IMG/VR virus record: IMGVR_UViG_3300009163_000179
Span: 1 to 24,131 of that record
Length of the DNA: 24,131 bases
Direction: 5' to 3' (one strand)
Source of the DNA: a virus
In this document: piece after piece, positions 17,706 to 19,220 of the stretch
How positions within the stretch are numbered: position 1 is the first letter of the stretch
How the letters are laid out: every line of letters begins with the position of its first letter
The notes under the pieces: model-generated
Told to the model about the DNA's origin: nothing
The model's input: the letters and a program-made list of their open reading frames with translations, nothing else
Database searches by the model: none
Position numbers and translations under genes: made by a program

Positions 17706-18578
17706 TCAGAGGGACTCGCCTTCCAGATAGCGGGGGTTCAAAATTCTCCATGCAACTGCTGCACAAAGAGGCACTTGTCCATTTCCAATGGCTTTAAGTC
17801 TGTCCACCCTATCGGCCATCCCATCAGCCACTCTACCCACTGCGGGTTCAGTTTCCCACCAACTTGAGCTGCTAATGTTGGTGTATTCCGATTTGCTTCG
17901 CTCGGAGAATTCATTTCCTTCGAGTTGTGTGCTGTCGGTGTTGGCCACATTTGAACTAATCGACCTAAGCCAACGCTGCCATCTTTCCCATTCTGATTTA
18001 TTTTCCTTGGCATCCCCGTTGACGTTGTGTAATAAGTGTCGTTTTTCCCAATCACTGCACCGCTGGTTGCGTCGCTCGATACCGGAGTGGGAACCGAGAA
18101 TCCAAATACGGTTTCTTTGATGGGGTGCTCCAATGGCTGAAGCTCCCAACACTCCCCATTTCGCATCAAACCCCATTGAGGCCAAGTTTCCAAGAACTCG
18201 TCCAAGCCCCCTAGAAGTAAGCATTGGTGAGTTTTCCACGAACACGAATCTAGGTCGTACTTCGTTAATGACCCTCGCCATTTCTCCCCACATTCCGCTT
18301 CGTTCTCCGTCAATTCCTGCGCCTTTTCCTGCTGCGCTAATGTCTTGGCATGGAAATCCTCCAGATACAACGTCAACAATTCCTCTCCACGGCTTTCCGT
18401 CAAAGGTTTGAACGTCATCCCAAATCGGGAAAGGCGGGAGAATTTCGTCATTTTGTCTTGCAACAAGTACGCTTGCTGGATATGGTTCCCATTCGACGGC
18501 GCAGACTGTTCGCCATCCGAGCATCTTTCCCCCAAGTATGCCTCCACCAGCACCCGCGAAAAGAGCCAACTCATTCAC
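17706..18578 (-). CDS. dcm-like: DNA (cytosine-5-)-methyltransferase
   Basis: 290 aa from GTG 18578. GGAGG at 18588-18584 lies 5 nt upstream, and the family start MNELALFAGAGGG fits this codon better than the TTG at 18602. Motifs in order: I (LFAGAGGGILGG), IV (GGFPCQDIS, catalytic C77), VI (VENSP, 114-118), VIII (QRNRIWI, 154-160), then a variable target-recognition part, and X (GNGQVP, 265-270). It methylates C5 of cytosine, probably for protection against host restriction; no restriction endonuclease is adjacent. It overlaps the 3' end of rusA by 8 nt. A second long frame runs through nearly the entire gene (see 17738-18574). Confidence 0.92.
   Translation of the reverse strand: MNELALFAGAGGGILGGKMLGWRTVCAVEWEPYPASVLVARQNDEILPPFPIWDDVQTFDGKPWRGIVDVVSGGFPCQDISAAGKGAGIDGERSGMWGEMARVINEVRPRFVFVENSPMLTSRGLGRVLGNLASMGFDAKWGVLGASAIGAPHQRNRIWILGSHSGIERRNQRCSDWEKRHLLHNVNGDAKENKSEWERWQRWLRSISSNVANTDSTQLEGNEFSERSKSEYTNISSSSWWETEPAVGRVADGMADRVDRLKAIGNGQVPLCAAVAWRILNPRYLEGESL
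17738..18574 (-). CDS. Overprinted protein inside the methyltransferase gene, +1 frame
   Basis: 278 codons without a stop, wholly inside the C5-methyltransferase gene in another frame. ATG 18574 forms an ATGA overlap with the rusA stop, and the same GGAGG used by the methyltransferase lies 9 nt upstream. The protein contains SRFGMTFKPLTESRGEELLT, CGEKWRGSLTKYDLDSCSWK, WPQWGLMRNGECWELQPLEH, WPTPTAHN, and GGKLNPQWVEWLMGWPIGWT followed by DLKPLEMDK. I recognise this combination (GMTF-x-x-LT, WPTPTA, LNPxWVEWLMGWPxGWTDL) from separately annotated phage proteins, often labelled hypothetical or methylase-associated. Whether it is made, and what it does, is unknown. The alternative is that the frame stays open only because the methyltransferase sequence constrains it. 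Confidence 0.55.
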   Translation of the reverse strand: MSWLFSRVLVEAYLGERCSDGEQSAPSNGNHIQQAYLLQDKMTKFSRLSRFGMTFKPLTESRGEELLTLYLEDFHAKTLAQQEKAQELTENEAECGEKWRGSLTKYDLDSCSWKTHQCLLLGGLDEFLETWPQWGLMRNGECWELQPLEHPIKETVFGFSVPTPVSSDATSGAVIGKNDTYYTTSTGMPRKINQNGKDGSVGLGRLVQMWPTPTAHNSKEMNSPSEANRNTPTLAAQVGGKLNPQWVEWLMGWPIGWTDLKPLEMDKCLFVQQLHGEF

Positions 18579-18939
18579 CTTCTCCTCCAGAAATTTCTTC
18601 AATCAGCACCCTTATAAGGCCACCCTTGATTTGTTCTCCTCGAATCATTTCAATGTGGTCCACCTGAAAATCATCATCGAAAACACCAGCATCTTGTAAG
18701 CTGTCTAGGACGGCTTTAATCCTGTTATCGATGTCAATTTTCCTCTTATCTCTAGGGCGCAAAATCATTGTTATCTTCAACTTCTTGTCCCCAAATTTAG
18801 GAATGTTCTTTTCTATGATGTAGTCCTGAACGTCTGTTTTGAATTGCCGTCCATTTTTTGAGAGAACAGTTCTCCCCCGAAAGTTACGCCAATACGTATT
18901 CATTGAAGGCGGGAACGGCAATTCAAGCCATGCGTGCAT
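18571..18939 (-). CDS. rusA: RusA-like Holliday junction resolvase
   Basis: 122 aa from ATG 18939, which overlaps the upstream stop by one base (TAATG); an in-frame TTG at 18945 is less likely. The N-terminal LPFPPSMNTYWRN is the RusA signature opening. RPRDKRKIDIDNRIKAVLDS with QDAGVFDDDFQVDHIEM supplies the acidic active-site residues (D69, D71, D89/D90) that bind Mg2+. RusA resolves four-way junctions made during recombination and clears branched DNA before packaging. It follows the RecT/exonuclease/OB-like genes in the same operon. Its last bases also hold the ribosome-binding site and starts of the methyltransferase and the overprinted frame. Confidence 0.9.
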   Translation of the reverse strand: MHAWLELPFPPSMNTYWRNFRGRTVLSKNGRQFKTDVQDYIIEKNIPKFGDKKLKITMILRPRDKRKIDIDNRIKAVLDSLQDAGVFDDDFQVDHIEMIRGEQIKGGLIRVLIEEISGGEGE

Positions 18940-19220
18940 TACCAAGGAATATCGCCAGCCATCTTAGATTTTGGCGTTATCTCTTTTGGATACTGAGCGT
19001 CCTTCTGCTTATCCTTCCAATCAGGGTCAGATACCTTGATGTTGAAGTATTCGCCATGAGGACCGTCGTTCTTCCAGATACCAAAATTAACAATCTGGCC
19101 TTTGACGCACAGGGTTCCCTTTAAATCAGGGTCAGTATCCTTTTGCTTGTATTTGTTGTGCGTGATACGCCCTTTTAGTTCTTGGGGAATAAACTTTGTG
19201 TATTCTTTTGCTTCACTCAT
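18939..19220 (-). CDS. Small OB/DUF736-like protein, possible ssDNA-binding
   Basis: A 93-aa protein from ATG 19220, with AAAGGAA on the - strand about 7 nt upstream; a longer frame to 19289 crosses a terminator-like hairpin and is rejected. It has the pattern KGRITHNKYKQKDTDPDLKG, then VKGQIVNFGIWKND, then GEYFNIKVSDPDW, which is a beta-barrel-like alternation similar to small OB or DUF736 proteins. Its place between recT and rusA suggests a single-strand-binding or accessory role in recombination. The family is uncertain, and no aromatic DNA-binding signature can be proved by eye. Confidence 0.5.
   Translation of the reverse strand: MSEAKEYTKFIPQELKGRITHNKYKQKDTDPDLKGTLCVKGQIVNFGIWKNDGPHGEYFNIKVSDPDWKDKQKDAQYPKEITPKSKMAGDIPW

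Follow-up and report, generated by a model that had tools for sequence, protein, structure and literature searches.

A probable two-chain C5-cytosine DNA methyltransferase in a phage genome, with one subunit overprinted on the gene of the other

The small chain of the C5-methyltransferase M.EcoHK31I is reportedly read from another frame inside the gene of its large chain. M.EcoHK31I (YGGCCR) consists of two polypeptides, the large chain carrying motifs I-VIII and X and the small chain motif IX, while the two-polypeptide C5-methyltransferase M.AquI (CYCGRG) has its natural split after motif VIII, with I-VIII on one chain and IX-X on the other, and its small chain also holds the distal recognition region (PMC3404938). 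In this study, we analyzed a 24,131-base virus record (the window, meaning this whole stretch of DNA), in which two open frames on the minus strand share the M.EcoHK31I motif layout; the comparison is one of layout, not of sequence. In the window and its family, the predicted large chain (alpha) has motifs I-VIII and X, and motif IX belongs to a predicted second chain (beta), the frame of which is nested in the alpha gene. The single-chain arrangement, in which one polypeptide holds I-VIII, the target-recognition domain (TRD), IX and X, was not found in the window, nor was the M.AquI type, with motif X on the small chain, which we found in loci L162, L240 and L244. Catdawg gp6/gp5 share the M.AquI layout with L240 and L244. 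Unlike M.AquI, the window family has motif X on the large chain, and its coding regions overlap almost completely. M.EcoHK31I belongs to a restriction-modification system, whereas the window pair lies in a phage genome beside a RusA gene. The published view of M.EcoHK31I places a predicted TRD on the large chain, whereas in the family studied here single-chain relatives and selection favour beta. The two-chain layout is already known from M.AquI and M.EcoHK31I; what appears to be new, within the literature searched, is its unexpected breadth. Such pairs are common across phages and prophages, where as a rule a single gene is annotated.

The two frames and their setting

Both frames lie where an earlier note on this DNA had located them, the methyltransferase frame starting at GTG 18578 and the second frame at ATG 18574, from which it is open for 278 codons. 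The features of the locus are as follows.

17706..18578, minus strand: predicted alpha chain, C5-cytosine methyltransferase frame, GTG start at 18578, 290 aa
17738..18574, minus strand: predicted beta chain, second (+1) frame, ATG start at 18574, 278 aa
18336..18362, minus strand: motif IV, catalytic GGFPCQDIS in the alpha frame, by translation
17859..18098, minus strand: the stretch from motif VIII to motif X (alpha codons 161-240), overlapping the beta WPTP modules
17924..17947, minus strand: beta module WPTPTAHN, the second of the two modules reading VPTPVSSD
17795..17854, minus strand: beta motif IX, KLNPQWVEWLMGWPIGWTDL, by hhalign to the single-chain form; overlapping alpha wobble bases frozen
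17769..17798, minus strand: motif X, LKAIGNGQVP in the alpha frame, by sequence
18584..18588, minus strand: GGAGG resembling a Shine-Dalgarno site, with spacings of 5 nt to the alpha GTG and 9 nt to the beta ATG downstream
18571..18945, minus strand: upstream RusA-like resolvase gene, PF05866, E 2.5e-13

We searched both frames against Pfam, NCBIfam and PHROGs, as the earlier note had proposed. Alpha matched methyltransferase families (PF00145, E 1.2e-32; phrog_363, E 6e-69 over residues 3-279), and beta matched phrog_1008 (E 8.9e-28) and two small PHROGs of unknown function. Neither beta nor the small chains of the split relatives were recognised by any Pfam or NCBIfam family, and comparison of the beta profile with PDB sequences gave no meaningful match. 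Motifs I, IV (PCQ), VI (ENV/ENS), VIII and X are present in order in the alpha frame. The claim that this frame has all motifs in order went too far, as I-VIII and X are present and the motif IX-like stretch is absent from the window alpha frame and sits in the +1 frame instead. Translation confirmed that DFHAKTL in the second frame is the frame-shifted reading of the catalytic GFPCQDIS. The single GGAGG site could serve both the alpha and the beta start. The TGA of the RusA-like gene overlaps the beta ATG (ATGA), and hence the start of beta may be translationally coupled.

Beta and the region between motifs VIII and X

Beta carries C5-methyltransferase motif IX (KLNPQWVEWLMGWP) and WPTP modules at the position of the TRD. 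When relatives were read in three frames, LNPxWVEWLMGWPxGW of the second frame occupied the place of motif IX, which in M.HhaI is RKLHPRECARVMGYP. Comparison by hhalign of the second-frame profile (A1) with the single-chain profile (A3) gave a probability of 96.9 and an E of 1.3e-10, with window beta residues 136-259 aligned to residues 166-311 of L255, between motifs VIII and X. In addition, phrog_1008 matches the second frame of the window, the Redbud internal gene, Catdawg gp5, and the C-terminal half of ShiLan gp70. By these alignments, beta is a homologue of the stretch between motifs VIII and X in single-chain relatives. Beta residues 1-135, which lie over motifs I-VII, are conserved and have no counterpart in single-chain enzymes. 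AlphaFold2 predicted beta alone poorly (49-sequence alignment, mean pLDDT 51.6), and this model was not used for a fold search; the low score fits a chain that folds only beside its partner, and proves nothing. The single-chain form was predicted with a pTM of 0.76 and a well-predicted motif IX-X end, and Foldseek matched this prediction to M.HhaI over its length (E 5e-14, TM 0.54); because the output came without a residue alignment, the structural position of motif IX is drawn from coverage and sequence only. The sequence NTPTLA lies directly before motif IX in the window. Its assignment to the TRD 'TL' motif, the consensus of which comes from PMC2413257, was dropped, since the loose pattern fits just 22 of 46 family members.

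Both frames are open, conserved and under selection, and motif IX is in beta only. We consider it probable (about 0.82) that the locus encodes a two-chain C5-cytosine DNA methyltransferase with the beta subunit overprinted on the alpha gene. Initiation at GTG 18578 would give alpha, with AdoMet binding, the catalytic cysteine and motifs I-VIII and X, and initiation 4 nt downstream at ATG 18574 would give beta in the +1 frame. The C-terminal half of beta would contribute motif IX and, through its WPTP modules, most likely the region that recognises the target. Alpha and beta would assemble into one enzyme, with which the phage would probably methylate its genome as protection from restriction by the host. 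From the sequence we infer the translation of both chains, their mutual binding, the specificity borne by beta and the biological role.

Alternatively, beta could be a separate protein, for example a regulator, a methyltransferase inhibitor or an anti-restriction factor, with an incidental or inherited likeness to motif IX. Its conserved residues 1-135 without a single-chain counterpart would suit such a protein, but alpha is without motif IX, the C-terminal half of beta is homologous to the VIII-to-X region of methyltransferases, and the +1 chain of split forms carries motif X too, all of which make this explanation unlikely. The earlier note had gone further and seen a whole second protein evolved on top of a methyltransferase. 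Two coding frames and purifying selection on the second were upheld; a separate, unrelated protein atop a complete methyltransferase was left unsupported, because the C-terminal half of beta aligns with the recognition/IX region and relatives alternate between one and two chains. The note was right that relatives of the second frame have been annotated separately, namely as phrog_1008, the Redbud 'g50 internal gene' and Catdawg gp5/gp6. On this evidence, the second frame most likely supplies the portion of the enzyme that alpha lacks.

The relatives form several architectures. LPTP modules, EWMMGWPAGWV and GNGVVP are in frame with motifs I-VIII in actinobacteriophages, including ShiLan gp70. 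Catdawg, a Spirochaetia MAG (L240) and Paraburkholderia (L244) have a first frame that terminates directly behind motif VIII, and in all three the recognition region, IX and X are found in +1. The M.AquI-like splits, in which alpha ends after VIII and the +1 frame has the recognition region, IX and X, are listed here.

L240:2997-4167
L244:2955-4497
L162:2089-3040

In a survey of architectures by motif, the counts of which include duplicates, 18 loci had frame 0 carrying IX as well as X, 239 had an open frame 0 carrying X but IX in +1, and 15 had a stop in frame 0 and both motifs in +1; a further 15 loci were other cases, and 41 were left unassigned to a class. The split form falls in three separate parts of a tree built from motifs I-VIII of 100 representatives. 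Two actinobacteriophage genes, L259:2001-3392 and L268:2001-3612, come from phages that are about 96% identical and are one 1-nt indel apart; the indel, near L268:2598, shifts the recognition region from frame 0 (single-chain) to +1 (split, with overlapping frames), and may be a sequencing error in one of the two. The family extends over Pseudomonadota, Verrucomicrobiota, Acidobacteriota, Spirochaetota, Nitrospirota, archaeal MAGs and many phages. Literature searches on overprinting in phage methyltransferases returned no report of this alpha/beta family, and its breadth and its single-chain/split/overprinted series appear to be undescribed in the literature searched.

Openness of and selection on the second frame

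Relatives recruited by either frame comprised 102 distinct loci, of which 98 were clean after four had been set aside (the second frame has a stop in L079, and the first frame has one in L037 and ends early in L023 and L081). The earlier note had named stops in relatives as evidence that would count against a second protein. The second frame contained no stops in 98 of 98 clean relatives, compared with a mean of 5.0 expected per gene under synonymous codon shuffling (mean P(open)=0.0016 per gene); the relatives share descent, and therefore these counts are not independent draws. All five sub-regions were without stops, with 52-167 stops expected per region in total. The frame was also free of stops in 35 GC-rich genes (108 expected), and 59 full-length bacterial/archaeal loci had 5 stops, all in two loci, compared with 204 expected. 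For the window gene, an openness by chance of near 2 in a million had been put forward. This figure came from the wrong null because the methyltransferase's own amino acids were ignored, and synonymous shuffles give 5.4 expected stops and P(open)=0.0002.

The second frame starts with ATG in all 102 viral loci, at an offset of +4 in 93 and -23 in 9. The Asn codon that creates the ATG is AAT in 93/93 viral loci; elsewhere in these genes AAT makes up 37% of Asn codons, and AAC is commoner. In the nine loci with the offset of -23 (L127, L130 and seven others), the beginning of beta is lengthened or repeated (MSWLISNALMNSLSSQGLVEE), which points to short duplications that kept the frame at the common start. 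Could the ribosome instead reach the beta C-terminus by a programmed frameshift, translating I-VIII in frame 0 and shifting to +1 to make one chain, with no start in +1? The single-chain relatives have exactly such a composition. Yet the +1 frame begins with an ATG and has no stop through an N-terminal part that the shift product would not need (0 stops in codons 2-160 vs about 307 expected), the AAT that creates this ATG is fixed, and alpha in the overprinted form is open as far as its own motif X. We therefore consider a frameshift quite improbable and continue with the two-chain enzyme with an overprinted beta subunit.

We measured selection by a four-class count (NN, NS, SN, SS) on 47 non-overlapping sequence pairs, which detected purifying selection on both frames of the overlapping pair. 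For beta, dNN/dNS was 0.49 overall (95% 0.42-0.55), and for alpha, dNN/dSN was 0.27 overall (0.24-0.30), with SS sites being few and saturated and the constraint being uneven along alpha. The substitution-class test across relatives that the earlier note had asked for thus came out for purifying selection on the second frame. At methyltransferase codons 161-240, beta is constrained (dNN/dNS 0.37-0.38) and the alpha frame itself only weakly so (dNN/dSN about 0.9). Over codons 241-281, which encode the beta C-terminus, dNN/dNS of the second frame fell to 0.26. Third bases are frozen at alpha codons 247-264, where they spell WVEWLMGWPLGWTDLKPL in the second frame, and are variable after codon 268. 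The frozen wobbles use differing codons for the same amino acid, Asp being GAT in 65/65 and GAC in 95/95, and Gly likewise GGT in 88/88 at one site and GGG in 97/97 at another. Identities and the shuffle comparison are inflated by common descent, which leaves the contrast between neighbouring regions unaffected.

It is very improbable that methyltransferase conservation and biased codon use alone keep the second frame open and conserved. In the alignment, the conserved motifs I, IV and VI-VIII dictate much of the N-terminus of the second frame, but the synonymous shuffles, the frozen wobbles at its motif IX and the conservation at codons 241-260, which is 0.87 for the second-frame residues vs 0.72 for the overlapping methyltransferase residues, all speak against such a by-product. 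Comparison across relatives gives us high confidence that the second protein is real. ShiLan gp65 is another phage methylase gene with an additional coding frame in it, a hidden HNH element (PMC11855218); the gene is a different one, and the element is an inserted mobile nuclease unrelated to beta. Despite this published precedent, we rejected a homing endonuclease hidden in the other frame as next to impossible, since beta has no match to HNH or other nuclease families in Pfam and NCBIfam, the second frame is no insertion and spans the catalytic motifs themselves, and it is kept family-wide and not sporadically.

We tentatively extend the two-chain reading, at somewhat below even odds, to an enzyme that carries its own TRD in the +1 frame of its catalytic gene, with specificity and catalysis locked in the same nucleotides. 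Alpha between VIII and X would then be a near-neutral spacer, WPTP units could be gained and lost in beta without harm to alpha, and the N-terminal 135 residues of beta would be an overprinted assembly domain.

Annotation, evolution and variants of the pair

Many 'orphan' cytosine methyltransferases of phages and prophages are annotated, and would be cloned, as alpha alone; if the two-chain model is right, alpha-only clones would test inactive or with the wrong specificity. The family phrog_1008 is named 'DNA methyltransferase' as if it were a complete enzyme, although its overprinted members are without catalytic motifs. This name gives the other half a whole-enzyme label and likely misleads phage annotation. 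The relatives make up a rare natural series that runs from one chain through split chains to full overprint and includes near-identical phages separated by one base; it suits asking how extensive gene overlaps on the same strand arise and persist. A near-complete same-strand overlap of two conserved proteins can, on this evidence, last across bacterial phyla.

Several variants were seen among the relatives. The WPTP modules differ greatly in number and kind, with both frames open (A1, columns 180-410), which looks like an exchange of recognition cassettes. In L206, L209 and L023, alpha has a stop or an early end before motif X and beta is open and without motif X; the cause may be decay, an error in the sequence, or an enzyme form that has no motif X, and the alpha stops in L206 and L209 count against the two-chain reading. 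A Gallionella MAG (L241:3001-3984) has residues 1-82 of the second frame running into methyltransferase residues 84-280 in one frame; this fusion is possibly an assembly error (indel) and was not used as evidence. The alpha/beta pair also occurs in E. coli prophages, intact in PT62 (L329:1500-2237) and with a stop in both frames at nearly the same place in PCP07014 (L330:1500-2261); in the prophages checked, alpha is the only one of the two frames that RefSeq annotates.
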